Below are positions 9,260 to 27,548 of a stretch of DNA of 39,030 bases, piece after piece; position 1 is the first letter of the stretch; the number at the start of each line of letters is the position of its first letter. Both the position numbers and the translations under genes were made by a program. The notes below the pieces were generated by a model. That model had not been told where the DNA came from and searched no databases. It was given only the letters and a program-made list of their open reading frames with translations. The stretch is from Betaproteobacteria bacterium RIFCSPLOWO2_02_64_14 (GTDB lineage Bacteria > Pseudomonadota > Gammaproteobacteria > Burkholderiales > SG8-41): positions 1 through 39,030 of the forward strand of contig MEQT01000135.1 of assembly GCA_001770325.1 (NCBI GenBank). Reading direction: 5' to 3'.

Positions 9260-9919
9260 TTAGAACAGCGTCGTCGCGCCGCAGTTGGCGTTGGGCGTGG
9301 CCGACTGCCATGCGCCCGTGCCGCTAGCGAAGCATACGTCGGCGGCATTCGTCGCGCCGCCGAAAGTCGAGAATCTCAACTGTCCGCCGTTGCCGAGTCC
9401 GTCATCAATCTTGCGATCGACTTCGGCAAGGATATCGGACGGAATGTTGTTACCGGTCTTCAGGTTGTGCCGAGCAGCGGGGGCGGCATCCTGATAGACG
9501 CTGTCAAAGATCAATTGCACGAGCGATCCGTAGGGATTGACTGGCGTGTTACTCGGCGCTGCCACGGCTGCATACACGTAACTGCCGGTTATGAAACCCG
9601 CCTTCGACAGATGTTCCCATGCGGAAATCGACTCGAGGATTGCGCCGTTAAGAAGAATCTGCCCGTTGTTGTCGCCATTCTGGCAAGCAGCACAGCCTGG
9701 AATATTGGTCGTGGCCTGGCTGTAATCACCCGGTAACGCGCGGTAGCGATCCAGAAAACCGAAATACGCCGCCTTCACGCCATCCTGGTGCGCGATCAGG
9801 TTGCGCACGCGGGCACTGGTGATCAGTTCCTGGCCCTTCAACACGCCGCCCAGTAACAAGCCGATGATTACCAGCACGATCGCAATTTCGATCAGGGTAA
9901 AGCCTTGTTGGGTCTTCAT
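9260..9919 (-). CDS. Type IV pilin-like protein, likely sigma-54 controlled
   Basis: The 219-aa protein starts MKTQQG|FTLIEIAIVLVIIG. This is a short basic leader, a prepilin peptidase site after G6, phenylalanine at +1, glutamate at +5 and a hydrophobic assembly helix. The globular part has an RALPGDY motif (60-66), a CxxC pair (C76, C79) with acidic residues DNNG after it, and a C-terminal cysteine pair (C196, C213) that could close the disulfide-bounded D-region typical of major pilins. It is transcribed alone, with a strong ribosome binding site (GGGAGG), its own -24/-12 promoter and a terminator. It is probably a main subunit of the Msh-like pilus. Prepilin peptidase is not in the window. 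Confidence 0.88.
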   Translation of the reverse strand: MKTQQGFTLIEIAIVLVIIGLLLGGVLKGQELITSARVRNLIAHQDGVKAAYFGFLDRYRALPGDYSQATTNIPGCAACQNGDNNGQILLNGAILESISAWEHLSKAGFITGSYVYAAVAAPSNTPVNPYGSLVQLIFDSVYQDAAPAARHNLKTGNNIPSDILAEVDRKIDDGLGNGGQLRFSTFGGATNAADVCFASGTGAWQSATPNANCGATTLF

Positions 9920-11684: not shown

Positions 11685-13457
11685 TTGACGTCACAGTATA
11701 GCGAATCACGGGGCGCCATCCCGGGGCGGGGAGATGGGCCGGGCACGAATGGGCGCGCCGGCACGCCGGCGGTGGCCGCTTTCGCGGCCCACGGACACTT
11801 GCGACTGTGCGTGATGTTGCTTGCGTTGCACGCTGCACTCGCCTGGGACATCAGCGAATGGTGGGCGCGCGCGTTTCTGCTCGCCCATTTCGGACTGTTT
11901 CTGCTGTGGCAGCCGGTCTGGCGCGGCGAGCGCGAGATCGAACTGCGACACGCGCTGCTGGTGGTAGGGGCGGGTGTGGTGCTGGCAGCGTCGAGCAGCT
12001 GGTGGCTCGTGGCGGTGTGGCTGGCGGTGCTGTTCGGCCTCATCGGCGGCTCGGTGCCCGGCACCGCAGATCGCCGCCAGCGTCTCGCGTCCGTCCTGGC
12101 AGCGGTGTACCTGCTGTCGATGCTGTTGATCTGGGTGGTGCCGCAGCTCCACGCGGGGAGCGTCGTCGAAACCGCGCAGCTTGCGCTGGTGCGCTACGGG
12201 CTCGCGTTCATTCCCCTCGCCATAGGCCTGACGCGCACGGAATCGGTGCGTGACGCCGCGCTGGTCGTCGTCGATCTCTTCTACAGCATTCTGCTGTTCC
12301 TTCTGGTGCTGGTGCTGGTGCTGGGGAGTTTCGTGGTGCAGCAGGTAAGCCACAGCGCATACCCATGGGCCCTCGCGCAGACTTTGTTCGTCATCGCACT
12401 GCTGCTGGTCGCGCTGTCCTGGCTGTGGAATCCGCGCAGCGGCTTCGCAGGCCTGGGGCAGATGCTTTCGCGCTACCTGCTGAGCATCGGGCTGCCGTTC
12501 GAGCGCTGGATCCAGAATCTCGCGGAACTCGCGCAGGTGGAGGCGCAGCCCGAACGCTTCCTAGAGGCGGCGTTGCAGCGCATGCTGGAAATGCCCTGGG
12601 TGACGGGGCTCGAGTGGCGCGCGGTGAGCGCCGGCGGCGAATTCGGCCGGAAGTCCGGGCACGTATCCGAGATCGCGGCCCAGGAGATTGCCTTGCGCGT
12701 CTACACCCGATGGCAGCCTTCCCCCGCGATGTTGCTGCACACCAAACTTCTCGCCCAGATGGTGGGATACTTCTACCGCGCCAAGCAGCGCGAGCAGACC
12801 CAGCTGCAAAACGCCTATACGCAGGCGATCTACGAGACCGGGTCACGTCTCACCCACGACGTGAAGAACCTGTTGCAGTCATTGCATTCGTTGTGCGCCG
12901 TCGCCGAGACCAGCACTCCCGAGCAGGCCGCGGCGCTGCAGGCGCTGATGCAGCGCCAGCTGCCGCAGATCACGCAACGCCTGAACACGACGCTCGAGAA
13001 ACTCCGTGCACCAGGTTTCGCAGCCGCGAGCCTCGTGGATGCGAAAGCATGGTGGGATGCGTTGGTGCAGCGCTACAGCGCGCGCGATATCCGGTTCCGG
13101 TTCGACGCGACCGCCAGTGCGCCCGGGCCCAGCGTGCCTGCCGAACTGTTCGACAGCGTCGCCGCCAATCTGATCGAGAACGCGATCCGGAAACGGACAC
13201 ACGGCGGGGAGCTGGAGGTCGGCGTTACGTTCTCGCCCGCAAACGGCGGACAGCTCACAGTATGTGATACTGGAGCACCGGTCGCGGAAGGCATCGCGGC
13301 GCAACTGTTCGCTGCGCCCGTGGCCTCCAGGTACGGACTGGGCGTCGGGCTCTACCACGCGGCGCGTCACGCCGCGCAGCTCGAGTACACCCTCAGGCTT
13401 GCAGCCAACGAACGCGGCCGGGTCTGTTTCGAACTCGCGCGGCGAAGCGCAGGGTGA
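11685..13457 (+). CDS. PrsK-like membrane sensor histidine kinase
   Basis: This is a sensor kinase of up to 590 aa. About seven hydrophobic segments fill residues 41-247, followed by a GAF-like region (about 280-370). The phospho-acceptor box is LTHDVKNLLQSL with H391, and the HATPase domain shows NLIENA (495-500), DTG (528-530) and GLGVGL (551-556). The HDVKNL form of the H-box and the membrane-GAF-kinase layout resemble PrsK, the partner of PrsR. The first in-frame start is TTG at 11685, only 17 bp from the divergent permease ATG. GTG 11811 or ATG 11814 would leave room for promoters and still include all membrane segments. The likely partner regulator is at 26106-27548. Confidence 0.88.
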   Translation: MTSQYSESRGAIPGRGDGPGTNGRAGTPAVAAFAAHGHLRLCVMLLALHAALAWDISEWWARAFLLAHFGLFLLWQPVWRGEREIELRHALLVVGAGVVLAASSSWWLVAVWLAVLFGLIGGSVPGTADRRQRLASVLAAVYLLSMLLIWVVPQLHAGSVVETAQLALVRYGLAFIPLAIGLTRTESVRDAALVVVDLFYSILLFLLVLVLVLGSFVVQQVSHSAYPWALAQTLFVIALLLVALSWLWNPRSGFAGLGQMLSRYLLSIGLPFERWIQNLAELAQVEAQPERFLEAALQRMLEMPWVTGLEWRAVSAGGEFGRKSGHVSEIAAQEIALRVYTRWQPSPAMLLHTKLLAQMVGYFYRAKQREQTQLQNAYTQAIYETGSRLTHDVKNLLQSLHSLCAVAETSTPEQAAALQALMQRQLPQITQRLNTTLEKLRAPGFAAASLVDAKAWWDALVQRYSARDIRFRFDATASAPGPSVPAELFDSVAANLIENAIRKRTHGGELEVGVTFSPANGGQLTVCDTGAPVAEGIAAQLFAAPVASRYGLGVGLYHAARHAAQLEYTLRLAANERGRVCFELARRSAG

Positions 13458-13464
13458 ACGGGAG

Positions 13465-14139
13465 TCACGGAAGTTTTCCCGCAGCCACCATGCGGTTGAA
13501 CAGGATCGGCCGCGAAATCCAGATCAGGATGTCGTCGAAAGTGCTGCTCGGAACGTCCGCCTGGTAGATCCCGCTCGTCGGCTCGAAACTCGCGAGTGCG
13601 TTCTGCCCATCGGCCGCGGTGTTGGCGCCCGCGGAAAAAATGATGGCGACGGGGCGCTCGGTCGACGAAGTGAGGGCAGTACCCGCGCTGTTCCTCACCG
13701 TGAGCGCATCGGCGCTGAAGCCGGTGGCGAGCGTGAAGGCTACGGCGAAATTCCGGTCCACCCGGTAGCGCCAGTCTCCGATGCGAAGGCTGCCGACTGC
13801 GGTGCGCCGGATGCCCCATGCGTCCATTTCCGCCACGCCCAGCGATTTCCAGGGCAGATACCCCTCGGTCACAGGGTCGGCACTGCACGCGGCCTCCTCG
13901 AGGCCGTATCCCGCCGCCGCGGGATCGCTGTCGGTGTCCGGGCACGGCAGGCGCCCGTTGATGATCGCGAATCCGATCAATGCCTCGCGTATTTCGTCCA
14001 TCGCCTTGCGCGTGTCGCTCGTCCTGCGCTGCTCGATCTGGGTGTTGAGCGGCACAAGGATGCTTCCGAGGAGAAGCGCGATGACGAGCACCGCCACGGC
14101 CAGCTCGATCAACGAAAACCCCTGCTGAGAGCGATGCAT
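13465..14139 (-). CDS. Pilin-like protein with one LPCPDTD module
   Basis: The 224-aa protein has a canonical prepilin start (MHRSQQG|FSLIELAVAV, with cleavage after G7 and glutamate at +5). The globular part begins REALIGFA and shows RLPCPDTDSD, then GYLPWKSLG, then RPVAIIFSAG and STFDDILIWISRPILFNRM at the end. The same landmarks occur in the upstream neighbour, 3 bp away. The aspartates of CPDTDSD could bind a metal, as calcium does in some pseudopilins, but this is not shown. It is the last gene of the minus-strand msh run and converges with the kinase gene, leaving 7 bp and no terminator between them. Confidence 0.87.
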   Translation of the reverse strand: MHRSQQGFSLIELAVAVLVIALLLGSILVPLNTQIEQRRTSDTRKAMDEIREALIGFAIINGRLPCPDTDSDPAAAGYGLEEAACSADPVTEGYLPWKSLGVAEMDAWGIRRTAVGSLRIGDWRYRVDRNFAVAFTLATGFSADALTVRNSAGTALTSSTERPVAIIFSAGANTAADGQNALASFEPTSGIYQADVPSSTFDDILIWISRPILFNRMVAAGKLP

Positions 14140-14142
14140 CGC

Positions 14143-15330
14143 TCAGGGCGCGACGGTGACCAGCCGGTCGTTCGCGGTTGCGCCTACGACCGTTCGGGCG
14201 TAAACGAAGTCGCCGTTCGTGTTTTCCACGTCCTCGATGCAGTCGTTCACTGTTGCGCACGGGCGTGCCTGCGCGCCCAGCGCGCGCCCAGGCATGATCA
14301 CCAGCGCCTGCAGGTCATCGTTGGGCGCGGGCATGCCGGTGACCGTCATCAGGCTGCCGGCGGCGGCGCAGCCCGGCGCCGTCGGCGAAGCGCAGCGCGA
14401 GGCAACGGCGTAGAACGCAATCTGATGCCAGTCATTCGAAAAAAACCACGCCGGCCAGGTGACCCCGTTCCAGTCCGGATCGGTCGGAGCGATCTTGCAG
14501 TCGTCGGAGAAGTAACGCGGAATGCGACCGCCATACTGGCTGGTGGTGCATCGGTAGGTGCCATCGGCATAGGCGTTGGCGAACGGGAAGTAGCCGTGGG
14601 CGCTGAAAAAAGCGCGCAGCACGGTTCGCGCCTCGCGGGCGACGCGCATCTCCACCACGGGCAGCAGTGCATCGCGGGTGAGCGGTAGCAACCGGTCGTT
14701 GAACGTAGCGCCGGCGGACGCGGTCACGAACGTGGTGGCGCCGGTGACTTCGTTGCCGCCCTCGAGATAGTTCTGCACCAGATTCTGACTCGCCGCGTCC
14801 CGCGCCTGAGCGCCGAGAACAGGGCCGGGCGCGAATACGACCGCGACCACACTGCTTGCCGGCGCGGTGCCGGTCACCGCCAGCTGACCGGGCGTGTCCG
14901 TGTTCAGAGCCGGCGCGCCAGCCGGGTTGCGCGAAAACGCCCGCGACACGGCGTACCAGAGCCGCTCGCCGCTGCCGTCACGAAGGTCCGGCAGGCCCAG
15001 CGTGCGCCACGGCAGACGCCCGATCTCGCTCGGGCAGTAGCTGCCGGCGTAGAGCTGCGCGGAGCCGTTGTTGTCGGTGTCCGGGCAGGGCAGCGAGGCG
15101 GGGCGGTTATCGTCGCTCGCGGCATAGCCAATCAGCGCCTCGCGCGCTTGCGCCAGGGCCTCGCTGGTAGTTTTCTCAGTCTCGAGCGCGAGGGAAGCGG
15201 GACTGATCAACGTGTAGAACAACGCGCCGAAGCCGATTCCGAGTATCACGAGTAGCGCGAGCAGCGCCTGCCCATTCTGCGCAGCGCGCACGCTGCACCT
15301 AGCGCGGGTCCGCACCATTGCCATCCGCAT
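14143..15330 (-). CDS. Atypical pilin-like protein with a duplicated LPCPDTD-type module
   Basis: This is a 395-aa secreted or membrane-anchored protein. A basic N-terminus leads to one hydrophobic helix (NGQALLALLVILGIGFGALF). The helix has a glycine at the expected cleavage point but no phenylalanine at +1 and no glutamate at +5, unlike true pilins. The rest looks like two related halves. Residues 60-222 carry REALIGYA, SLPCPDTDNNG, GRLPWRTLG, VLGAQAR and ATFNDRL. Residues 230-395 carry REARTVLRAFF, YFPF, GGRIPRYF, ALGAQAR and ATANDRL. The neighbouring pilin-like gene carries one such module. ATG 15324 has slightly better Shine-Dalgarno spacing than 15330. Both starts overlap the mshK-like gene. 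Confidence 0.85.
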   Translation of the reverse strand: MRMAMVRTRARCSVRAAQNGQALLALLVILGIGFGALFYTLISPASLALETEKTTSEALAQAREALIGYAASDDNRPASLPCPDTDNNGSAQLYAGSYCPSEIGRLPWRTLGLPDLRDGSGERLWYAVSRAFSRNPAGAPALNTDTPGQLAVTGTAPASSVVAVVFAPGPVLGAQARDAASQNLVQNYLEGGNEVTGATTFVTASAGATFNDRLLPLTRDALLPVVEMRVAREARTVLRAFFSAHGYFPFANAYADGTYRCTTSQYGGRIPRYFSDDCKIAPTDPDWNGVTWPAWFFSNDWHQIAFYAVASRCASPTAPGCAAAGSLMTVTGMPAPNDDLQALVIMPGRALGAQARPCATVNDCIEDVENTNGDFVYARTVVGATANDRLVTVAP

Positions 15331-15847
15331 CCCTGCGGGTCGCTGGTGCCGCTCGCGCGCCGGTCGGCGCTCCGGTTGAAGCAGGCTTCGGCTGTGACAC
15401 CGCCGGTTTTCCGGCAGCTTTGTCGCTGCCGCGTGCGCGGCTGTAGGGCTCGGCGATCGTGCCCGACACGATTTCGACGCTTTGTCCGACCTTGAGATTG
15501 ACCGAATGATCGGATTGAGCGATGCCGAGGCTCACGCTCCCGTCCGGACGCAGCCTGCTGGTGACAGGCACCCCACCAGGGGCTTTCCCATCATTGATTG
15601 CCCGGTTGTTGATCCACACCGTAGTCCTGCCATCGCTGCGCCGCACGAGCCCGTCGTAGGTGACTACCTCCGGCAACAGCGGCGGTTCCTCTGGCTCGGC
15701 ACTGGTCGCGGCGCGGCTTTTCTGGCTGCGTGCCACGTCGAGTTGGACGCGCTGGGCCGGAGTATAGAAGAGCCGGCCGAGCGGCTCGGCGGCGTACGGC
15801 GCCAGCGGCGCGAGAGCGAAGGCGAGGCCGAGAAGCGCGCGCCTCAC
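15299..15847 (-). CDS. mshK: MshK-like periplasmic pilus assembly protein
   Basis: I set the start at GTG 15847. It overlaps the preceding stop as GTGA, has GGTGGAGA seven bases upstream, and gives a clean signal peptide (RRALLGLAFALAPLAPYAA). The mature protein contains a short proline-rich segment and a beta-rich core (VTYDGLVRRSDGRTTVWINN, then LKVGQSVEIVSG) of the kind seen in MshK/GspB-like proteins. A disordered Pro/Ala/Arg-rich tail follows. The longer open frame upstream would overlap mshJ by over 100 bp. The family assignment rests mainly on position after mshJ and on the overall layout. Confidence 0.8.
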   Translation of the reverse strand: MRRALLGLAFALAPLAPYAAEPLGRLFYTPAQRVQLDVARSQKSRAATSAEPEEPPLLPEVVTYDGLVRRSDGRTTVWINNRAINDGKAPGGVPVTSRLRPDGSVSLGIAQSDHSVNLKVGQSVEIVSGTIAEPYSRARGSDKAAGKPAVSQPKPASTGAPTGARAAPATRRDADGNGADPR

Positions 15848-16452
15848 GGCTGATTCTCCACCCGGCGCGGTTTGGCGGTGATCCACGAGAGTTTGCACTC
15901 GGCGGCGAGGTTGGGTTGGTAGCGGATGGCGCCGGTCGTATCCGTGCGTTTCATCGCGCACTCGTCGATCGCGAACATGCCCGCCCCCGCATCCTGCAAT
16001 GTGTTGAAAAAGCGCAGAAGATCCTCTTCGTGCAGCAGCCGAAAGCGTATGGTCATGACCGACTGGTTAAGCGCAATGTCGCCGGCTTTCAACTCGCTCG
16101 CGTGGGCGTAGGGCGCTTGCGAACTGATCTGGTAATCGACCCCGAATAGTTCCGCCCGCTCGTTCGCAAGTCTCAAGCCGTCGAGCCAGTTGATGCGCTG
16201 CTCGTCGCCAGCGAATCCCGTACGCTGCAGTTCTTGGTAGCCACCGACATAACGGACGATCACTTCCTTCTCATCTCCCGACCGTTGCAGCCGGGTACGG
16301 GCGTCGCGCAGCTGCGATTCCTGTTGCGCGAGCTGCCGCTGTGCCTCGTTGAGCAGCGTCTCGGAGTAGTAGACCGCCCCGCCCGCCGCGACTGCGGCCA
16401 GCACCAGCACGATGGCCGGCAGCTGTAGCTCACGATGGGCGAGGTCTCTCAT
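15844..16452 (-). CDS. mshJ: PilO/MshJ-like inner-membrane assembly protein
   Basis: The 202-aa protein has one transmembrane helix (about residues 10-28). A coiled-coil region (LLNEAQRQLAQQESQLRDARTRL and onward to about 65) and a small periplasmic ferredoxin-like domain follow. This is the layout of PilO, GspM and MshJ. It overlaps the upstream mshI-like gene by 4 bp (ATGA) and the downstream gene by 4 bp. Such tight coupling is typical of the IJK subset of pilus platforms. It probably links the cytoplasmic MshI and the periplasmic MshK. Confidence 0.83.
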   Translation of the reverse strand: MRDLAHRELQLPAIVLVLAAVAAGGAVYYSETLLNEAQRQLAQQESQLRDARTRLQRSGDEKEVIVRYVGGYQELQRTGFAGDEQRINWLDGLRLANERAELFGVDYQISSQAPYAHASELKAGDIALNQSVMTIRFRLLHEEDLLRFFNTLQDAGAGMFAIDECAMKRTDTTGAIRYQPNLAAECKLSWITAKPRRVENQP

Positions 16453-18008
16453 AGGTTGGGCTTCAACACCACCAGCACTTTGAAATCCGCAGCCCCCGGC
16501 AGCTCCCGGTTGTCGAGCGTGTTGCCCGCCAGGGTGAGCGCCGGATCGACGTTGAGCGGGAGTTTCACGATGCGTGCGTCCGCGACGGCCGGGTCCCGGG
16601 CGAGTTGCGCGGCAAACGCGTTGATGGTTGCGACGGCGGCGCGATAATCGCCGCGGAACGGCTTGATCTCGCCTTCAATGACGCCGCTCTGCCTGCGCCC
16701 CGGGGGCACGCCCGGTGGTGCGGGTGCCGCCGCCGCGCGCCGCGTGCCGGTGCCGGCGTCCGCCTCGCCCGCCCCATACTTCCACGTGAGCCCGGAGATC
16801 ACGATGCCTGGCGTGGACTCGAGTGCCGCGCTCACGACGCGCATGAACAGCTCCGGGGTGCGCACGCCCTCGCGCAGTTGTTGCGCGATCTCGACCGTGC
16901 GCTTCAGGTTGCGGGCCGAGGTCGGGGCAGCGGGAAACTGGCGCGTGGCTTCCCGGTACTGCGCCTGCAGCAGTGCCGTCTGGCGGGCGGCCTCGATCTT
17001 CTGGGCGTGCGCATCGGCCGCCTGCCACAGATTGACGCCGCTCCAGGCGGCGCCGGCGAGGGCAAGCACCCCGGCCGCCGCATAAATCGCGCGGCGCAAC
17101 TGCAGCCGCCGAAAACCGATGGTGACGTTGCTCGGAGCAAGGTTGCATGCCGGGGTGCGGATCGCCAGCAATTGCAGGTAAATGGCCTCCGGGCTCAGCT
17201 CGAGCACAGACTCGGCAATCTTCAGCCGCGAGGAAAGCTCGCGCCGGCCCAGACGCATGCATTCCAGGCTCGGATTGTCGCGCGCAATCGCGCCGGTCGC
17301 TTCGACCAGCGTGTCGTTGCGATCCAGCAGGAGGAGAGTCAGCTGCTCGTCGAGCCGCGTGGTACGCAATGCGTGCAGGTAGACCCGGGTGTTCGAGATT
17401 TCGTCCGTGATGAAACGCGCGCGATCGCCGGCCCTGCCGCCATCGCCCCGCGTCAGGCGGCTCAGGCGGAACTGGCCATCGCGAAAGAACGTCAGCCGCA
17501 GTCCGCCGCTTTGCTGCGACACGAGCAGCAGGTTCGCCCCCTTGATGCGCAGCGTCTCGAAGAGCGTCGCGCTGACGATCGGCAGCAAAAAGATGCCCGC
17601 AACGGCCATGCCGCGCACGCTCACCGCCTGCAACCATGGCGCGAGCAGGTTTGGATTGGTCAGTGCCGAGAACAGGTAGCGATCGTCGCGCCGCTTGCTC
17701 TTGTCGCGCCCCAGCAGCCATGCAGCGACGTATGGCGTGTTGCGATAATGCTGTTTGAGCTTGCGCTGCACCAGTTCGCGCCGGTCGGCGCCGAACGCGT
17801 GCGGCAGCATCTCGAAGCGATAGTCTTCCTCGACGACATCGACCATCAGGTACGCCGGCAGGCCGGCGTAAGGGGCGAGATATTCGTCGAAAGCGGCGAG
17901 TCCGGATTCGTCGTTCTGGAAGGTCGTGCAATCCACGAGCTGGCGGCGACGGCACAATGCCGCCGTCACCTGAACCGCCGAGACGCAAATGAATATCGTG
18001 TCAGCCAT
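16449..18008 (-). CDS. mshI: MshI-like PilM-PilN fusion protein
   Basis: The 519-aa protein combines a cytoplasmic PilM/GspL-like actin-fold region (about residues 1-290) with a PilN-like part. The PilN-like part has one transmembrane helix (about 312-335, AIYAAAGVLALAGAAW), a coiled coil (QKIEAARQTALLQAQYREATRQF) and a periplasmic beta-alpha domain. Classical ATP-binding signatures of PilM are not obvious. The ATG at 18008 lacks a Shine-Dalgarno sequence. Thirteen bp upstream lies a heptamer repeat array, so the leader may have been altered by the repeat. A possible sigma-54 promoter lies at 18107-18121. Confidence 0.83.
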   Translation of the reverse strand: MADTIFICVSAVQVTAALCRRRQLVDCTTFQNDESGLAAFDEYLAPYAGLPAYLMVDVVEEDYRFEMLPHAFGADRRELVQRKLKQHYRNTPYVAAWLLGRDKSKRRDDRYLFSALTNPNLLAPWLQAVSVRGMAVAGIFLLPIVSATLFETLRIKGANLLLVSQQSGGLRLTFFRDGQFRLSRLTRGDGGRAGDRARFITDEISNTRVYLHALRTTRLDEQLTLLLLDRNDTLVEATGAIARDNPSLECMRLGRRELSSRLKIAESVLELSPEAIYLQLLAIRTPACNLAPSNVTIGFRRLQLRRAIYAAAGVLALAGAAWSGVNLWQAADAHAQKIEAARQTALLQAQYREATRQFPAAPTSARNLKRTVEIAQQLREGVRTPELFMRVVSAALESTPGIVISGLTWKYGAGEADAGTGTRRAAAAPAPPGVPPGRRQSGVIEGEIKPFRGDYRAAVATINAFAAQLARDPAVADARIVKLPLNVDPALTLAGNTLDNRELPGAADFKVLVVLKPNL

Positions 18009-18178: not shown

Positions 18179-19387
18179 CTAGAATTTAAGCTTACCCAAA
18201 ATATCATACACCGGCGATAGTACCGACCACATGATGAGCGCAAGCAAGGTGCCCAGGCCCAGCGTAAGTGTGGGCTCCAGGAGCTTCAATGCCTTGTCCA
18301 CGGATTCGCGCACTTCGCGGGTGTAGAAGTAGTTGACGTTGTTCAACGCCGTGTCGAGCGCGCCGGTGTTCTCGCCCACGCGCAGCATCCGGATCACGAG
18401 CGGCGGGAACAGGCCCAGGTTGCGGAACGCCTCGGTCATGTTCTCGCCGGCGGAAATCTGTTGCCCGGCGCGCATCAGGCCGTCCGCGATCACGCGATTG
18501 GCGACGATGTCCTCGCTGGTCTTCAGCGCGTCGAGCACCGTGATGCCGGACTGGTACATCAGGGAAAAGAAGTTGGCGAATCGGGCCAGTATGATCTTCT
18601 TCAGGATTGCGCCGGTGAACGGCAGGCGCAACTTCATGTAATCCCACATATAGGCCGCGGCCGCGTTGCGCCTGACCATTGCAACCGTGCCGATCGCGAG
18701 CGCGAGCGGGATTCCGATGACCAGCGGCCAGTAAGTGATCACCACGTGCGAGGCGAAGATCAGCACCTTGGTCTGGATCGGCAGGTCGATGCCCATGGTC
18801 TTGAGCAACGACACCACCTGGGGCACGAGAAAGATCAGGAGGAACACGATCACCGCAAGCACCACCGCGAGCACCATCGCCGGGTAGATCATGAGCCGCT
18901 TGGTCTGCGATGACAGCTCGTCCTCCCACTTGAGCGACGCAGTGAGGCTGGCGAACACCTCGGACATGCGGCCGGTCTGCTCGCCCGCGCGCACCAGGCT
19001 CACAAACACCTCGTCGAATATCTGCGGGTAGGTCGCCATGCATTGCGACATGACCTTCCCGCCCTCCATGTCCTCGGTCATGCCCGTCAGCACTTCCCGG
19101 AAGCGTGGGTTCTCGATGGTGTCGCGCAGGTCGCGCAAGCCGTCGATCAGCGGTATCCCCGAGCGGTTCATCTGCTCCATGTCGAAGCAGAAGTTGATGA
19201 GTTCCTGGCGCGTGATCCTGCCGCCGGCGGCGGGCTTGCGCCCGGCGCCCTCGAGCTGCCGGTAAGTGATGAGGTCCAGCCCCATGCGCCGCAGGCGCTG
19301 CTCCAGGTCGACCTCGTTGATTGCCTCCAGTCCGCCGCGGGCGGGACGCCCGGTGCGGTCGACGGCTTTGTACTGAAAAGTGGGCAC
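18179..19387 (-). CDS. mshG: MshG/PilC-like inner-membrane platform protein
   Basis: This is the polytopic platform protein of type IV pili and type II secretion. I chose GTG 19387 because it starts [V]PTFQYKAVDRTGRP, the usual family beginning, and gives 402 aa. The frame continues upstream into heptamer repeats and is not credible there. Two T2SSF domains (about residues 70-190 and 275-395) are each followed by membrane helices. Conserved elements include SGIPLIDGLRDLRDT and SGITVLDALKTSEDI. No Shine-Dalgarno sequence is visible before the GTG, where array C begins 15 bp away. It follows mshE, its usual partner. Confidence 0.9.
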   Translation of the reverse strand: MPTFQYKAVDRTGRPARGGLEAINEVDLEQRLRRMGLDLITYRQLEGAGRKPAAGGRITRQELINFCFDMEQMNRSGIPLIDGLRDLRDTIENPRFREVLTGMTEDMEGGKVMSQCMATYPQIFDEVFVSLVRAGEQTGRMSEVFASLTASLKWEDELSSQTKRLMIYPAMVLAVVLAVIVFLLIFLVPQVVSLLKTMGIDLPIQTKVLIFASHVVITYWPLVIGIPLALAIGTVAMVRRNAAAAYMWDYMKLRLPFTGAILKKIILARFANFFSLMYQSGITVLDALKTSEDIVANRVIADGLMRAGQQISAGENMTEAFRNLGLFPPLVIRMLRVGENTGALDTALNNVNYFYTREVRESVDKALKLLEPTLTLGLGTLLALIMWSVLSPVYDILGKLKF

Positions 19388-19401
19388 TAGAATCAGCGCA
19401 C

Positions 19402-19429
19402 AATGATGAATGATGAATGATGAATGATG
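19402..19429. repeat. Heptamer array C, first arm (unit AATGATG)
   Basis: There are four perfect copies of AATGATG between mshE and mshG, ending 15 bp from the mshG start codon. With the second arm (19465-19499) it forms an inverted pair, since the second arm's CATTCAT unit is the complement of the same sequence. Confidence 0.93.
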
Positions 19430-19464
19430 AACGGAGTGCGCAGAACGAGGATCCGCGTGATCTT

Positions 19465-19499
19465 CATTCCGCATTCATCATTCATCATTCCGCATTAAC
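19465..19499. repeat. Heptamer array C, second arm (unit CATTCAT, inverted)
   Basis: The five units are CATTCCG, CATTCAT, CATTCAT, CATTCCG and CATTAAC. The last unit contains the mshE stop codon (TAA, complement of 19495-19497). Paired with the first arm it could fold into a long imperfect hairpin with a loop of about 35 nt. Confidence 0.9.
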
Positions 19500-21198
19500 C
19501 ATAGCGGCCGGTGAGATCGATGGAGCGGGCCACTTCCGTGAGCGTGGTGGCGCCGTCGACCGCGCGGCGCAGACCTTCCAGCGCGAGCGGGCGAAAATCC
19601 CTGGCCAGCGCGGCCGCGCGCAATTCCTGCCCCGTGACGTGGCGCGCGACCAGTTCGTCGAGATCGCTGTCCATCACGAGCAGCTCCATGATTGCAGTGC
19701 GGCCCTTGTAGCCCTTGTTGTTGCACTGCCTGCATCCCACGGCGCGGTAGAGGCTGGGGAGGGCGTCGCCGCGGTCGCCGATGAGCGCAAGTTCCTCGGG
19801 CGATGGCGCGTAGGCCTCCTTGCAGTGCGGGCAGAGCATGCGCACCAGGCGCTGGGCAATGACTCCGATGATGTTGCCGGCGAGAATGTAGGGCTGAATG
19901 CCGATATCCAGCAGCCGGGGAAAGGCGCCCAGCGCCGAGTTGGTGTGGAGCGTGGTGAACACCTGGTGGCCCGTCATCGCGGCGCGAAACGCCATTTCCG
20001 CGGTTTCCTTGTCGCGGATCTCGCCGACCAGGATGATGTCGGGGTCCTGGCGCATGATGGAGCGGATCCCGCCCGCGAAGTCCATCCTCGCCACCTCGTT
20101 GATCGAAGTCTGCCGCATCAGGGTCACCGGGTACTCGACCGGGTCCTCGAGGGTCATGATGTTGACCGTTTCATCATTGACCTGCGCGAGCAGCGAGTAA
20201 AGCGTCGTCGTCTTGCCGCTGCCGGTTGGACCCGTCACCACCAGTATGCCCTCCGGACGCGCGAGCATGAGCTTCAACCGCGCCAGCGTTCCCGCGGGAA
20301 GATTCATGCGCTCGAGGCTGAGGATCGATTTCTCGCGGTCGAGCACCCGCACCACGACGTTTTCGCCGTAGATGGTAGGCTGCGTCGACAGGCGGAAATC
20401 GATCGGGCGGCCGTTCAACGTCAGCGACAGCCGCCCGTCCTGCGGCGCGCGGGTCTCGGCGATGTTCATGTCGCTCATCACCTTGAGCCGCACCGTGATC
20501 CCGGGCATGTAGCTCTTGTGCAGGCTGCGCACGGTCTCCAGCACGCCATCGATGCGGTAGCGGATGCGCATGAAGGCATATTCCGGTTCGAAGTGGATGT
20601 CGGATGCGCCGCGTTTGACCGCATCGACCAGCAGCGAATTCACCAGCCGCACGATGGGCTGCGTGTATTCGTCACCGCCAGAGGGCAGGCTCTCGTAATC
20701 GATCTCGCCGGTTTCGATCTCGTGCAGGATGCCGTCGACCGAAAGCTCGTAACCGTAGAACTGATCGATGTAGTTTTCGAGCTGGTCTTCGCTCGCGAAC
20801 TGGGTCTTGATCTCGACCTCGGGGCCCAGCATCGCGCGCAACTGGTCCATCGCAACGACGTTGAATATTTCCGGCGTCGCGACGGTCAGCACGCGGTCGG
20901 CCGGATCGTAGGCGATGGGCATCACGCGGTTGCGGCGGGCGAATTCCTGGGGCACCAATTTGAGCGCCTCGGCGTCGGCGACGACCTGCGACAGATCGAT
21001 GGATTCCTGGCCGATGGTGCGCGACATGATGTCGCGGATCGCCGTTTCCGTGACGAATCCGAGCCGCACGAGCAAGCGCCCGATGGGAACGTTGTTGTTG
21101 CGCTGTTCGGCGAGCGCGATGGCGAGCTGATCGGGGGTGATGAGCCCCTGCTGCACGAGGAGGTCGCCTAGCCGCAGTTTCTTGCGCTGTTCAGCCAT
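19495..21198 (-). CDS. mshE: MshE/PilB-like pilus extension ATPase with c-di-GMP motif
   Basis: This is a hexameric AAA-like ATPase that powers pilus assembly at the cytoplasmic face. The 567-aa protein has an N-terminal MshEN domain. The first motif at residues 9-32 starts RLGDLLVQQGLI and fits the c-di-GMP-binding pattern RLGxx[LVI]2xxG[LVI]2x4Lx3Lx2Q at every position. The second copy (38-61) is degenerate, with PIG in place of RLG. The ATPase has Walker A GPTGSGKTT (323-331), a Walker B/Asp-box region IMRQDPDIILVGEIRD (381-396), the His box TGHQVFTTLH, and a zinc-type tetracysteine (CPHC 456-459, CRQC 489-492). It lies between mshN and mshG. Confidence 0.93.
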   Translation of the reverse strand: MAEQRKKLRLGDLLVQQGLITPDQLAIALAEQRNNNVPIGRLLVRLGFVTETAIRDIMSRTIGQESIDLSQVVADAEALKLVPQEFARRNRVMPIAYDPADRVLTVATPEIFNVVAMDQLRAMLGPEVEIKTQFASEDQLENYIDQFYGYELSVDGILHEIETGEIDYESLPSGGDEYTQPIVRLVNSLLVDAVKRGASDIHFEPEYAFMRIRYRIDGVLETVRSLHKSYMPGITVRLKVMSDMNIAETRAPQDGRLSLTLNGRPIDFRLSTQPTIYGENVVVRVLDREKSILSLERMNLPAGTLARLKLMLARPEGILVVTGPTGSGKTTTLYSLLAQVNDETVNIMTLEDPVEYPVTLMRQTSINEVARMDFAGGIRSIMRQDPDIILVGEIRDKETAEMAFRAAMTGHQVFTTLHTNSALGAFPRLLDIGIQPYILAGNIIGVIAQRLVRMLCPHCKEAYAPSPEELALIGDRGDALPSLYRAVGCRQCNNKGYKGRTAIMELLVMDSDLDELVARHVTGQELRAAALARDFRPLALEGLRRAVDGATTLTEVARSIDLTGRYG

Positions 21199-21291: not shown

Positions 21292-22521
21292 CTATTCTAC
21301 CTGCGCCGCCAGGCGGCTGATCCGGTCCTGGACCTGGGCGGTGTCGAAGTTGGCGTGACCGCGCTTCGCGGCCAGCCCCGCGGCCTGGCGATAGAAGCGC
21401 AGGGCGAGTCCGGGTTGGGAGAGGTGCTCGAGTGCCACGGCGAGGTTGTACGCGCAGTCCGGATTGCCCGGCTCGAGATGATGGGCCTGGAAATACGCCT
21501 GCTGTGCCTGGGCCCACAGCGATTGATCGGCATACAGATTGCCGAGCGTGAAATAGAGAAAAGCGGATGGCTCGCGGGCGATCAACTGTTTGAGGCGCGT
21601 TTCCGCACCCAGCGGATCGCCGCGCCCGAACTGCCCGATCAATCCCGACTGCGCCAAGGCGTGGCGCGGGTCGAGTTCCAGGATCTGCTGGTAATAACGG
21701 GTCGCGTCGTCGGCCCTGCCCTGCAATGCCGCCGTTGCCGCAAGGCCAAGCAGGACATCGAGGTTTCTGGGCTCATTTCGCGCAAGCTGGGCGTACAGGC
21801 GCTGCGCTGTTTCCAGGTTGCCGGCCTGCAGCGCGCCATAGGCTTCCACGAGCAACGGGCTGACCGTCACTGCGGCAGTGCCGCCACTGACCACGATCTT
21901 GCTCCCGGGAGGGGTTGTTGCTTTCTGCGCGAGCGCTGGCGCGGCAGGTTTCGATGCAGGCACGCGCTCAGTTGCCGCAGGGCGCGCGGGCGCTTCCACG
22001 ACGGGCGGCTCGAGCACCGCGCTCGAAGGGATCGGTGGGGCGATTGACGGGACGGGCGCCGAGGGGGCGGCCGGGCCCGGGGATTGTGCGGCCGGCGATA
22101 CCGTCGCTGGGGCCGGAGATTTGCGAACGAACACGCCGGGATGGTAGATCTGGAGGTACACGTAGACCGCGAATCCAGCGGCGAACAACCCGGCCAGCAC
22201 TCCAAACACGATCACCGGGTTGATCCGGCGGCGATCGTCCAGCCTGGCACCCGTGTGCTCGCCCGCCCGCATGACGGTGGCGGCGCGGCCCTGCTCGTGT
22301 GTGGCCGAAGAGGCGCCCGCGTCGGCGGCAGCGAGCCGCGCCTTCGGCGTCGCCTCGGCCCGGGTCTGCGAGGCCGGTGCTTCGGTCGCGAGGAGTTCGA
22401 GAGCGAGCGATAACTCGGGCTTGGATTCCCCGGCCGCCGGCGAGGGGGACGCGGTCGGCTCGTTGCGCGTTTCGCCCCGGTCTTTGGCGGCCTGTTCCAG
22501 GGCCTTCATCAACAGGCTCAT
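21292..22521 (-). CDS. mshN: MshN-like TPR protein
   Basis: The 409-aa protein begins MSLLMKALEQAAKDR, a start seen in betaproteobacterial MshN-like proteins. A low-complexity cytoplasmic region leads to one transmembrane helix (about residues 102-126). A long Pro/Ala-rich linker follows, then a C-terminal block of TPR repeats (for example LVEAYGALQAGNLETAQRLY, then further units up to PGLALRFYRQAAGLA). It overlaps the secretin gene by 4 bp (ATGA). By analogy with MSHA it probably connects the secretin with the inner-membrane platform. Confidence 0.85.
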   Translation of the reverse strand: MSLLMKALEQAAKDRGETRNEPTASPSPAAGESKPELSLALELLATEAPASQTRAEATPKARLAAADAGASSATHEQGRAATVMRAGEHTGARLDDRRRINPVIVFGVLAGLFAAGFAVYVYLQIYHPGVFVRKSPAPATVSPAAQSPGPAAPSAPVPSIAPPIPSSAVLEPPVVEAPARPAATERVPASKPAAPALAQKATTPPGSKIVVSGGTAAVTVSPLLVEAYGALQAGNLETAQRLYAQLARNEPRNLDVLLGLAATAALQGRADDATRYYQQILELDPRHALAQSGLIGQFGRGDPLGAETRLKQLIAREPSAFLYFTLGNLYADQSLWAQAQQAYFQAHHLEPGNPDCAYNLAVALEHLSQPGLALRFYRQAAGLAAKRGHANFDTAQVQDRISRLAAQVE

Positions 22522-24482
22522 CGAGCATTCCCTGAGGCGTCGGGTCTTCCTTGAGGTTGCTGGCTGGGTGGCAGGAACGAGGACGGCATACCCTCTGGCG
22601 GCGCGGGCGGGGCTTCCGGTTTGGGCAGGAAGCGATTGAAAAATTTCAGCTCGTCAGCCTCCAGGGTCGGATTGCGCACGATGGTGGCGCGCAGGAAGAT
22701 GACGAGCTCGGTCTTGCTCACCTGCTCATCGCGGAAAGCGAACAGCTCGCCCAGGTCGCGCACGTTGCCAACGAGCGGCACCTGGTCTCTGTTGCGCCGA
22801 ACGTCATCCTGCATGAGCCCACCAAGGATCACGGCCTGGCCATTGCCGAGCTGCAGCACGGATTCCATCTCGCGCACCTGGACCTGTGGCACCCGGTTCT
22901 GGATGCAGGTGCTTTGGGTGGCGGTGCACAGGCTGGGATTGGGATCGTTCACGAACGGCTGAGTCGGATTGAGCCGCGTGATCGTCGGGCGCACCGTGAG
23001 CTGCACGCGGCCGTCGTCGTTGATCTGCGGGATGACCCCCATCACCACGCCGACAGCCACCGTCCTCGCCGTGGTCGTAGCGGTGGTAAGGGTCGGCGTG
23101 TTCACCGCCTGCGAGGTCTGCACTTGGACATCGAAGTAAACAACGTTGTCGACGACCTTGAGCAATGCCGTCTGATTGTTCAGTGCCATCAGTTTCGGAC
23201 TTGACAGCACCCGCGCATTGCCGAACTGCTCGAGCAGCTTGACCGTAAGCTGGATGTCGCCCTGGCGCTGGTTGCTCTGGTTGTAGAACAAGGCGAAGAA
23301 CGGCGCGGTGGCGAGGTTGCCGCCGAGCAGGGCCTGGGTGAAGGCGATGCCCCCGCTCTGCGAGACGCGCGCCCAATCGATCCCCGCCTGGTAGTTGTTG
23401 GCAAGCTGCACCTCGACGATGGTCGCCTCGATCAGCACCTGGCGCTGGGCCACCGCCGTGATGCTGTCGATATGCTGCTGGATCAGCTGGTGCTGCCGCG
23501 CCGAAGCGAGCACGCTCAGCGTTCCGGTGACGGGATTGACGATGATGTCATCGCGCGCATCAAACGGCTGCTGTTGTGACGGGCCACGGAATGCCGTCGC
23601 GTAAAGGTTCGTCGCGCCCTGGCCTGCGCGCGCCACGGCCTCGGCCTGCTTCAGCGCCGTCTCGCGCGCGGAGCGGTGTTCTTCGGCGACCTTCGCTTTC
23701 TCTTCCGAGCTCAGGCTGTGCGCGCGCGTGGACACCAGTATCGCGCGGATGTTGTCGCGCAACTGGTCCCAGAAATCGTTCTTTGAAACGGTGCGTACCT
23801 GGGTGCTCGATGCCCCGGTCGTGCCGCCGCCGGCAACACCCGTGGTGCCGCCGCTCGTGGTTCCCGCGGTGGCGCTGCCCGAACCGGATGACGACGAGGC
23901 GATTTCGCCCGACACGCTGACGGTGGACGTCGTGTCGCGAGTCATGTTTACGTAGCCGATCCGATAGGTCTTGAGGTAAGGCGTGTCGGGAGAGACGATG
24001 ATCGTGTTGGCCTCGACGCGGTAGCGCATGTTGACCTGTTTCGCGATGCGATCGAGGATTGCGGGCAGCGTCTCGTTAATCGCGTTCATGCTCACCAGCC
24101 CCTGCAGGCCGGAGTGGATATCGATGTTCTGCTTGGTGTCGCGCCCGAGCGCCAGCAGCAACTCCTTGACCGGAACTTCATTGACCACGACGCTGTAGGT
24201 TTGCGGCTTCACCGCCGGCTTGGGCGGGGGCACGAACGTGCTTGTGCGCGCCGGGGGAGGGATCGCACGGTCGGGCTCCGGCCGGGCTTGCTGGCTGCCG
24301 ATGTGTCCTTCGGAGGGGGGCACGTACGGACGATATTGCGTGCAGCCGGCCGCTACGAGCAACGCCACCGCCGCAGGCAGCCACCCGGGCGGGATTGCCG
24401 GACCCCGTGCGACGCGATTTCGTGCTGCCCGCAGTGCCGCCGGGACTGCGAGGTTCGCTGCCAACTCCCACCGCATCAACAT
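22518..24482 (-). CDS. mshL: MshL-like outer-membrane secretin lipoprotein
   Basis: This is an outer-membrane secretin pore for the pilus, about 654 aa. A lipobox (LLVAAGC) near the N-terminus suggests a lipoprotein. N-domains follow (VVVNEVPVKELLLALGRDTKQN, then a second one), with a Ser/Gly/Thr-rich linker. The C-terminal secretin domain has VLIEATIVEVQL, NARVLSSPKLMALNNQTA and VLQLGNGQAVILGGLMQDD. I chose ATG 24482 because GGAGGGG precedes it; ATG 24476 has better Shine-Dalgarno spacing, and the frame stays open to 24518. The signal region is unusually long. The domain order fits MSHA-type secretins. Confidence 0.91.
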   Translation of the reverse strand: MLMRWELAANLAVPAALRAARNRVARGPAIPPGWLPAAVALLVAAGCTQYRPYVPPSEGHIGSQQARPEPDRAIPPPARTSTFVPPPKPAVKPQTYSVVVNEVPVKELLLALGRDTKQNIDIHSGLQGLVSMNAINETLPAILDRIAKQVNMRYRVEANTIIVSPDTPYLKTYRIGYVNMTRDTTSTVSVSGEIASSSSGSGSATAGTTSGGTTGVAGGGTTGASSTQVRTVSKNDFWDQLRDNIRAILVSTRAHSLSSEEKAKVAEEHRSARETALKQAEAVARAGQGATNLYATAFRGPSQQQPFDARDDIIVNPVTGTLSVLASARQHQLIQQHIDSITAVAQRQVLIEATIVEVQLANNYQAGIDWARVSQSGGIAFTQALLGGNLATAPFFALFYNQSNQRQGDIQLTVKLLEQFGNARVLSSPKLMALNNQTALLKVVDNVVYFDVQVQTSQAVNTPTLTTATTTARTVAVGVVMGVIPQINDDGRVQLTVRPTITRLNPTQPFVNDPNPSLCTATQSTCIQNRVPQVQVREMESVLQLGNGQAVILGGLMQDDVRRNRDQVPLVGNVRDLGELFAFRDEQVSKTELVIFLRATIVRNPTLEADELKFFNRFLPKPEAPPAPPEGMPSSFLPPSQQPQGRPDASGNAR

Positions 24483-24539
24483 GTCCCCTCCGCTGTTGCG
24501 CACTGCTGCAAACGCCATGGCCGTTGCCGCCCGCGCATT

Positions 24540-26051
24540 TCACGAGGCCTGTTGTGGCCGCCCGGTCTGCGCGCGAATACCGCGCACGGTGCGAAGGAAA
24601 GGCCGGTTTGCCTTCAGGGCCGGCGGCAGCTTGTCGAGCGCATCCTGCGCCGCGCCGCGATCGCTGAAACTGCCGTACAGCACACCCAGCGAGGCTTTGC
24701 GGTTGGCACCCGTACGATACAAAAAAACCTTATTGATTTCAATGAATTTCGCTATATCGCTGAGGTCGCGTGCGAGCTGTGGCTCGTGTTCGGCCTCCAT
24801 CAACTGAATGGTGAAGGCGTTGGGGTCCACGCTCTTGAGCCATTGCCGGGTGGCGGCGAGGCGCAGGTCCACGAGATTGCCTGCCTCGATCTCGGGCCGC
24901 GCGGGCAGTTCAGCACTCGTGGCCCCTGCCCCTGTCACCGGCGCAGCGCGTGCCTCAGTGCCCCGAGTAGCCGGGGCCCTTTCCGCGGCGGATTTCAACC
25001 CAGCTGCGGCCGCCGCCCGTTCAGCGGGTGGCACGCCGGTTGTTGCGCTAACCGTATGGTCTTTCAATGCTTCGACACCCGCAGGCGCAGGGCTTGCGGT
25101 GGAACTCGGGTTGACCCCCACCTCGGGCGCAATGGTGTCACCCGCGCGCAACAGCGCGTAAACACCCGAGCCAGTTGCGACAACGGTAAGTGCCATCGCG
25201 ATCCACGGGGCGATAGGGCCGCGCATCCATGTGCGTGGGCGCTGGCTGAATTCGCTGTCGCGTACCGCGGCGCCGACGTGCTTCGGCTTGATCGTGTGCG
25301 TGTTCTCCGAGAACGCGGCGAGCAGGGCCTTGTCCGCAATGAGATTGACACGGCGCGTGAGGCCCTCCGAGGCCCGCGCGATGCGCTTCACCACGGCGCG
25401 TGAGAAAAGATCAGGGCCACGATAACCAGCGGTGCGCATGCGGAACATGAGGTACTCGTGGATCTCCACCGCAGTGAGCGGTTCCAGCCGGAAGCTGTGG
25501 GCGATGCGTTCGCGCAGCTGCCGTATGTTGGGCTGGCGCAGGTTCTCGTCGAGTTCGGGCTGCCCGAAGAGCACGATCTGCAGCAGCTTGTCGTTGCGCG
25601 TTTCCAGATTGGACAGGAGGCGGATCTCCTCCAGGGTCGCAAGCGGCATGCTTTGCGATTCCTCTACGATGACGACCACGTGACGGCCTTCCGCGTGGCG
25701 CTTCAGCAGATGCTCCTGGAGGGCGTGCATGACTTCGAGACGCGATGTGCCGGAGGCGGTTCCCATCTGCAGCTCGAACGCGATGGCGTGCAGGATCTCT
25801 TCGGGGGGCACGTTCGGATGCACGAGGTACACGGTCTCCACGTTCGACGGCAGCCGCGCCTGCAGCATGTTGCACAACATGGTCTTGCCGCTGCCGACCT
25901 CGCCGGTGACCTTGACCATGCCCTCGCCCTGCGTCACGGCGTAGATCAGCGCCTCGAGTATCGGGCCGCGGTTGCCGCCACCGAAGAAAAAACCGGTGTT
26001 GGGCGTGATCCGGAACGGGGGCTCGTTCAGCCCGAAGTGGTTGTAATACAT
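24540..26051 (-). CDS. mshM: MshM/ExeA-like AAA+ ATPase with SPOR-like C-terminus
   Basis: The 503-aa inner-membrane protein starts MYYNHFGLNEPPFRITP, typical of the ExeA/MshM family. Walker A is GEVGSGKT (50-57) and Walker B is VVVIVEE (125-131). A transmembrane helix lies at about 279-301, followed by an Ala/Pro-rich linker. The last 85 residues (from FTIQLMEAEHEPQLARDL to the end) look like a SPOR peptidoglycan-binding domain, as in DamX or ExeA partners. The family inserts secretins through the cell wall, which fits its place immediately before mshL. A short stop-to-start gap suggests co-transcription. Confidence 0.89.
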   Translation of the reverse strand: MYYNHFGLNEPPFRITPNTGFFFGGGNRGPILEALIYAVTQGEGMVKVTGEVGSGKTMLCNMLQARLPSNVETVYLVHPNVPPEEILHAIAFELQMGTASGTSRLEVMHALQEHLLKRHAEGRHVVVIVEESQSMPLATLEEIRLLSNLETRNDKLLQIVLFGQPELDENLRQPNIRQLRERIAHSFRLEPLTAVEIHEYLMFRMRTAGYRGPDLFSRAVVKRIARASEGLTRRVNLIADKALLAAFSENTHTIKPKHVGAAVRDSEFSQRPRTWMRGPIAPWIAMALTVVATGSGVYALLRAGDTIAPEVGVNPSSTASPAPAGVEALKDHTVSATTGVPPAERAAAAAGLKSAAERAPATRGTEARAAPVTGAGATSAELPARPEIEAGNLVDLRLAATRQWLKSVDPNAFTIQLMEAEHEPQLARDLSDIAKFIEINKVFLYRTGANRKASLGVLYGSFSDRGAAQDALDKLPPALKANRPFLRTVRGIRAQTGRPQQAS

Positions 26052-26105: not shown

Positions 26106-27548
26106 TCATTTTGCGTCCTTGGCCGGCTCCGCGTGCCCTGCGTGGCTCTGCATCCGGCTGTAGAGCGTGGTGCGGTGGATGCCCAGCAGCTTCGCCGCAC
26201 GGGTGAGGTTGCCATGGGTGAGCGCCAGGGCCGCGTCAATATAGCCACGCTCCCATTGCTGCAGCGTGAGGTCGAGGTCGAATGATTTTCGGGACTGGAG
26301 ATGGTGTTTTGCCGCATCCTGAAGCGCCTCCGAGTCTTCCATGAAGGGAAGTTCGGCGGGGCCCGGCTCCATGCCGTCGGTGTCGAGTTCGGCCTGCAGC
26401 TGCTCGGAGTTGACCTTGCGCCCGGCGTACTTCGTGGTGAGCCGGATCACGATGTTGCGCAACTCGCGCACGTTCCCGGGGAAACCGTAGTCCATCCACG
26501 ACCGCATCGCGGCGTCGTCCAGCTCGAACTTCGGCATGCGCGCCTGCTGCGCGTAGCACTCCCGGAAATGGTCGAGCAGCACGCAGCGGTCATCGCCCAG
26601 GTCGCGCAGAGCGGGGACCGTGACGGTGAATACCGAGAGGCGGTGATAGAGGTCGGCGCGAAAGCGCCCGTTGCGTATCTCCGCGCGCATGTCGCGGTTG
26701 GTCGCCGCGAGCACGCGCGCATTGGACGCCCGCGTCAGCGTTTCGCCGACACGCTGGAACTCGCCGTTCTCCAGCACGCGCAGCAGCTTTGCCTGCAGCT
26801 CGAGCGGAAGTTCGCCGATCTCGTCGAGAAACAGCGTCGAATCGCGCGCATCCTCGAAGTAGCCGGCGCGCGCGTTGGTGGCGCCCGTGAACGCGCCTTT
26901 GGCATAGCCGAACAGCGTCGGTTCGACCAGCGTCGGCGAGATCGCGGCGCAGTTGAGCGCGAGGAACGGACGTTCCGCGCGATGGCTCAACGAGTGCAGC
27001 GATCTCGCGACGAGTTCCTTGCCGCTTCCCGATTCACCCTCGATCAGCACCGGGAAAGGCGCATCGGCAAACTGCCCGATCTGCTGGCGTAGCTTTTCGA
27101 CGGGCGGGCTGCTCCCGAGCAGCCCGCCGCCGGGGGCGGTGGCGGGATCGGCGCCGCGGATCGCCAGCACGTCCGCAAGCAGCTTCTGGAGCTTTCGCGG
27201 TTCGCACGGCTTGGCGACGAAATCGATCGCGCCCAGGGTGCGCGCGTGGCGCGCGTTGGTTTCGTCGTTCTGCCCCGACAACACGACGATCTTGATCGAC
27301 GGCGAGTAGGCGAGCAGCTCGCTCACCAGCCGGAACCCCTCGTCGGGACGGTGCGGCGTGGGCGGCAACCCGAGATCCACCAGGGCGAGCTGTGGCGGCC
27401 GTTCGAGCTGCAGCAGCAGGCTTCTCGCCTGCGGCCGCGACCCCGCGACATATACGACAAAGTCCCGGCTCAGCACGAAATTGAGCGTATCGGTGATGAG
27501 CGGGTCGTCGTCGACGATCAACAGGTCGGGTTTGTCGTTCGCTGCCAT
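26106..27548 (-). CDS. PrsR-like sigma-54-dependent response regulator
   Basis: This is a 480-aa transcription activator of the NtrC class. The receiver domain (1-125) has acidic residues DDD (13-15), phospho-acceptor D58 in [10 protein letters not shown] and K113. The run DLGLPP...EG and the segment [14 protein letters not shown] resemble PrsR. The AAA+ domain has Walker A GESGSGKE (171-178), the sigma-54 contact loop GAFTGA (218-223) and Walker B LFLDEIGE (239-246). A Fis-type HTH ([19 protein letters not shown]) ends the protein. It heads the msh run, 54 bp before mshM. The kinase at 11685-13457 is the likely partner and the pilin promoter a likely target; both are inference. Confidence 0.92.

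Follow-up and report, generated by a model that had tools for sequence, protein, structure and literature searches.

The window analysed here, a stretch of 39,030 nucleotides, carries an MSHA-like pilus operon on its minus strand, and the last gene of this operon encodes a pilin-like protein of 395 amino acids (14143-15330, minus strand; an open reading frame with an ATG start). At the far end of the locus lies an AAA ATPase (24540-26051), a candidate MshM equivalent, which matched AAA_22 and fell below the cut-off of TIGR03015. Next to it is a secretin of the MshL type (22518-24518), recognised by the Pfam Secretin model and scoring 238.9 bits with the MshL model TIGR02519, just under its cut-off of 250.2. 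It is followed by a TPR protein, MshN-like by its TPR match and position (21292-22521), by an MshE-like extension ATPase with an MshEN c-di-GMP domain (19495-21198; matches to T2SSE, MshEN and the c-di-GMP motif NF053729), and by a platform protein of the MshG/GspF kind (18179-19474; T2SSF and TIGR02120). Three further proteins, all encoded on the minus strand like those above, are assigned by their position: a 519-aa inner-membrane assembly protein with one transmembrane segment, probably MshI-like (16449-18008), a 202-aa single-pass protein, probably MshJ/PilO-like (15844-16452), and a 220-aa protein, probably MshK/PilP-like (15299-15961). The gene for the 395-aa protein lies directly after these inner-membrane assembly genes, and the same gene order, including the place of the MshI-like gene, was found in the records L003 and L006.

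A pilin gene of the GFTLIE type with an N_methyl match is located downstream at 9260-9919 on the minus strand. Its product is 50-83% identical in most of the family, better conserved than the 395-aa protein, and in most genomes the gene shares contig and strand with the gene for the 395-aa protein, which lies about 4-7 kb further upstream. Because it is both better conserved and linked to the operon in most genomes, it is probably the major pilin of the system. The model of the MSH pilus system comprises mshE, mshG, mshL, mshM and mshA (PMC6668835). Genes corresponding to E, G and L were found in the window (L below the MshL cut-off), M was found only as the AAA/TIGR03015 protein, and the major pilin was assigned by linkage. 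In Vibrio, the msh locus carries a set of several msh pilin genes. The locus in the window resembles that of the Vibrio cholerae MSHA pilus in having the MshL, N, E, G and I/J/K-like gene set together, but has a two-gene pilin pair in place of the several msh pilin genes. Searching the genome for DUF6701, as in MshQ, yielded no hit, and neither did the controls of that search.

The 395-aa protein begins with a basic leader of 20 residues (15271-15330, minus strand), which ends at Gly20, the predicted prepilin peptidase site (G/QALLA). The sequence around this site is RAAQNG followed by QALLALLVILGIGFGALF, and the features of a type III leader, namely a basic stretch, Gly at position -1 and a long hydrophobic helix, are all present. 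Residues 21-45 (15196-15270, minus strand) form the hydrophobic N-terminal part of a long helix, which spans residues 15-72 in the AlphaFold2 model. The Pfam scan gave no match of the N_methyl model to the protein. The residue at position +5 is Ala, and Glu was found at this position in 0 of 70 family members. Homologues were gathered from genome collections, and 33 of them were aligned; they were present in 76 of 100 sampled relatives and, across the class, in 67 of 274 genomes. Searches of Pfam, NCBIfam and PDB sequences with the 395-aa protein and its 9-member alignment gave no match, the GspK family gave no Pfam or NCBIfam match for the protein at E values up to 1, and a literature search for LPCPD pilins gave nothing relevant. 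The family is widespread and unnamed, with no Pfam or NCBIfam model.

The second gene of the pilin pair (13465-14139, minus strand) starts 3 nt after the end of the gene for the 395-aa protein. It encodes a single-domain pilin which matches N_methyl (PF07963) and has Glu5 (GFSLIE), a residue present in 69 of 69 such neighbours (68 by pattern, and one as the variant GFTLTE). Among 71 loci, the pair was intact in 65, 4 had no room for the second gene and 2 lacked the partner; the Glu5 pilin is therefore found directly downstream in 65 of the 67 loci with room.

Profile comparison revealed that the 395-aa protein consists of two homologous halves, D1 (residues 52-222; 14665-15177, minus strand) and D2 (residues 223-395; 14146-14664, minus strand). 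For this comparison an alignment of 30 relatives was split at residue 222/223 and the two profiles were compared by hhalign. They aligned end to end with a probability of 99.2% and a score of 101.9-103.2, while 60 column-permuted controls gave 13.1 +/- 2.8 (maximum 23.7) and reversed columns gave 15.3. In the 395-aa protein alone, blastp aligned D1 with D2 at 39% identity over 67 residues (E 2e-8). In both domains the C-terminal half contributes most of the signal (score 82), and the N-terminal half alone is weak (19). The similarity of the two halves is far beyond chance, which confirms the observation made in an earlier note on this DNA. The same note had taken the adjacent gene for a single copy of the module, and its product is indeed a homologue of D1, with a profile score of 167-170 and an hhalign E value of 1e-30; its score with D2 is 52-56, and both values are far above the controls. 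We conclude that the 395-aa protein is a pilin lacking Glu5, with a duplicated head, encoded in an MSHA-like pilus locus. The suggestion in the note that a pilin globular domain was duplicated is backed by the profile comparison, by conservation in relatives and by the order of secondary structure elements in the model described below.

The landmarks previously noticed in the two halves do occur in the same order: REA at 63 and 232, GRLP at 104 and GRIP at 268, WYAV at 125 and FYAV at 306, LGAQAR at 172 and 351, and ATFNDRL at 208 and ATANDRL at 384. The note spoke of two copies of an LPCPDTD module, but the LPCPDTD segment itself occurs only once, at residue 80 in D1 (where it precedes GRLPW, LWYAV, LGAQAR and FNDRL), and the aligned place in D2 is occupied by FPFANAY. 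The Trp of the proposed W...YAV landmark is likewise not aligned between the halves.

The loop of D1 with this segment, LPCPDTDNNG (residues 80-89; 15064-15093, minus strand), resembles a calcium loop and contains a Cys. After LPCP the residues are D-T-D-N-N-G, which fit the spacing D-x-[DN]-x-[DN]-G. The whole pattern was found in 43 of 65 D1 domains, in 19 of 59 neighbours and in 0 of 49 D2 domains; position by position, the 65 D1 domains have the first Asp in 59 cases, Asp or Asn at the third position in 46 and at the fifth in 53, and the following Gly in 50. A calcium site in this loop is therefore plausible from the motif counts. A second Cys between LPCPD and GRLP is conserved in 56 of 65 D1 domains, which suggests a putative disulphide at the loop.

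The AlphaFold2 model of the 395-aa protein, built with nine sequences, has a mean pLDDT of 58 and a pTM of 0.63, a low to medium confidence, and the pLDDT of the D2 strands is about 45-65. In the D1 part, helix 15-72 is followed by strands at 103-105, 125-128, 161-167 and 213-218; the D2 part opens with a 27-residue helix (219-245), after which come strands at 306-309, 342-346 and 389-393. Strands of the two parts sit on the paired motifs WYAV/FYAV, VVAVVFA/LQALVIM and NDRLL/NDRLV. The order of elements in a pilin head, a helix and then an antiparallel sheet, fits this model of pLDDT 58 in both halves; the picture of a single long helix preceding two domains has to be amended, since D2 starts with a helix of its own.

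Structure comparison of the D1 model by VIA-align found GspG pseudopilins as the best matches (3gn9, Z 6.2 over 86 residues, rmsd 2.3; 4lw9, Z 5.5), but a Z of about 6 can also be reached by common arrangements. Foldseek of the model against the PDB gave no match with E under 1, and the model of the neighbour protein gave weak pilin matches, the best with Z 4.3. A GspG profile gave no sequence signal when compared directly with D1; it scored 29 against the neighbour family with the membrane helix removed (maximum of 40 shuffles 20.6), and gave a weak 22.5 against D2 (shuffle maximum 15.1). In the alignment of the neighbour family with GspG, LPCPD lies opposite the YPT turn, and DAWGNRFRY opposite DPWGNPYQY. 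The loop of D1 is thus probably placed where GspG has YPT, so that LPCPD may correspond to the turn which follows the first helix in a head of the GspG kind. GspG is the closest solved fold for D1 and its YPT and PWGNPYQY regions are alignable with the neighbour family, but this major pseudopilin is a single-domain protein which has Glu5 and lacks the LPCPDTD loop.

Comparison with longer homologues found that residues 251-300 of D2 (14431-14580, minus strand) are a place of insertion in relatives. In other families of the class, the inserts lie between the first helix of D2 and the motif WF..N.W..V.YAV; proteins of 580-780 aa carry about 190-255 aa of insert, and those of 980-1135 aa (L079-L085) about 480-730 aa. 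The longest contain tandem repeats of about 75 aa (DFxxxGVxxGDxVxNxTDGSxGxV), with many offset matches between and within inserts; the Pfam scan of the proteins with long insertions found nothing significant. The protein in the window is a compact form with no recognisable adhesive module. Large and variable inserts of this type would be expected on a platform that is exposed at the surface and makes contacts; they suggest that D2 is such a platform for an adhesin, and in related bacteria they may be adhesive. Homologues in Thiomicrorhabdus have one clear LPCPD domain and no clear D2; therefore, D2 is not essential to the role of the protein. Two Thiomicrorhabdus records contain a row of four pilin genes whose products have loops of the LPCPD or VPCPD-like kind (L008, 7998-12758; L010, 7863-12696), the first of which is a one-domain version of the gene for the 395-aa protein.

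Assembly of type 4 filaments begins with a tip complex whose capping subunit has no Glu5, an absence allowed in capping subunits only (PMC10191384). Because the 395-aa protein lacks Glu5, known filament tips are capped by such pilins and the gene context points the same way, we read it as a tip subunit: a minor pilin that would cap an MSHA-like type IV pilus, with a duplicated head and D2 facing outward, a reading to which we assign a probability of about 0.68. We infer that the leader would be cut after Gly20 and the hydrophobic helix inserted into the filament core, and that the protein, lacking Glu5, would be the first, capping subunit. D1 would then be an ordinary head of the GspG/pilin type and D2 a diverged second one, which starts with a helix of its own and lies above D1; the neighbouring Glu5 pilin, the paralogue of D1, would probably be the next subunit down. 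D2 would probably be the outward-facing part that makes contacts, in an adhesive role that we likewise infer, and the loop of D1 probably binds calcium, carries a disulphide or does both, as judged by motif conservation only.

In its proposed action the protein would work like a GspK-type cap or a modular tip pilin. GspK is the large tip subunit of the T2SS (PMC5131608) and binds calcium (PMC6211770). Like GspK/XcpX and other capping pilins lacking Glu5, the 395-aa protein is large, is encoded beside Glu5 pilins, and has an extra domain beyond the pilin head, the calcium sites of GspK being a further possible parallel; unlike in GspK, the extra domain repeats the pilin head instead of being an alpha-helical insert, and there is no detectable sequence match. 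The modular pilins PilB and PilC of Streptococcus sanguinis also join a pilin head to a second module and have been proposed to be located at the tip, and PilB mediates metal-dependent adhesion (PMC8179133). Their grafted module, however, has a non-pilin fold (vWA or lectin-like), whereas here it is a duplicated pilin head, which itself carries insertions in relatives. The added domain of a modular pilin is one not restricted to type 4 pili; D2 is a homologue of the pilin head. We do not claim membership in either group, because the sequence or module features that define them were tested and found absent.

The 395-aa protein might also be a structural or priming subunit with no adhesive function, in which the sole task of D2 is to keep more subunits from being added or to touch the secretin, a task that the extra domain of GspK may also have. 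The compact forms, including that in the window, carry no extra module, and tips of the GspK type cap by steric block (PMC5131608), both of which agree with such a subunit; but the large, variable and repeat-containing insertions in D2 of many relatives look surface-exposed and function-bearing, and we regard a purely structural role as rather unlikely. Less probable still is that D2 came from a third paralogous pilin gene, which was fused to this one, instead of from duplication of D1; the finished protein may work alike in either case. Paralogous pilins do occur side by side, as the neighbour gene and the four adjacent LPCPD-type genes of Thiomicrorhabdus illustrate, and D2, just as a whole pilin head would, includes a helix of its own; however, D1 and D2 have in common the features GxxLGxQxR and NDRL, which are missing in the neighbour family, and the score of D2 is 102 with D1 but 52 with the neighbour. 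That the operon encodes a T2SS-like secretion or pseudopilus machine, with the 395-aa protein as its tip pseudopilin, is very improbable: D1 resembles GspG and the GspE and GspF models score well, but MshL is the best-scoring model for the secretin (238.9 bits versus 140.5 for GspD), the ATPase carries MshEN and c-di-GMP domains, and the TPR protein fits MshN.

In MSHA-like pili, where the minor pilins are poorly characterised, the minor tip pilin that we favour would be a candidate tip adhesin. Its tandem pilin head sets it apart from the known modular pilins, in which the added domains are foreign. As a tentative and at present doubtful extension, the pilus tip might be a covalently linked pair of pilin heads, in which D2 stands in for the next subunit that is missing above D1; the filament would then start from a ready-made two-head cap, and the second head would serve in many lineages as a docking site for inserted adhesive or stalk modules. 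The range of forms, from compact proteins to those of 1135 aa, offers a way to test how pilus tips gain binding modules.

Two regulatory genes flank the pilus operon: a sigma-54 response regulator (26106-27548, minus strand), which matches the PEP-CTERM response regulator model best, and a histidine kinase (11685-13457, plus strand). They are possibly the control pair of the operon. Three of the metagenome-assembled genome records used for comparison (L003, L004 and L005) are titled Bordetella parapertussis; their contigs are the same as those of G045, G041 and G029, which belong to the window's own family, and the titles look like mislabels.
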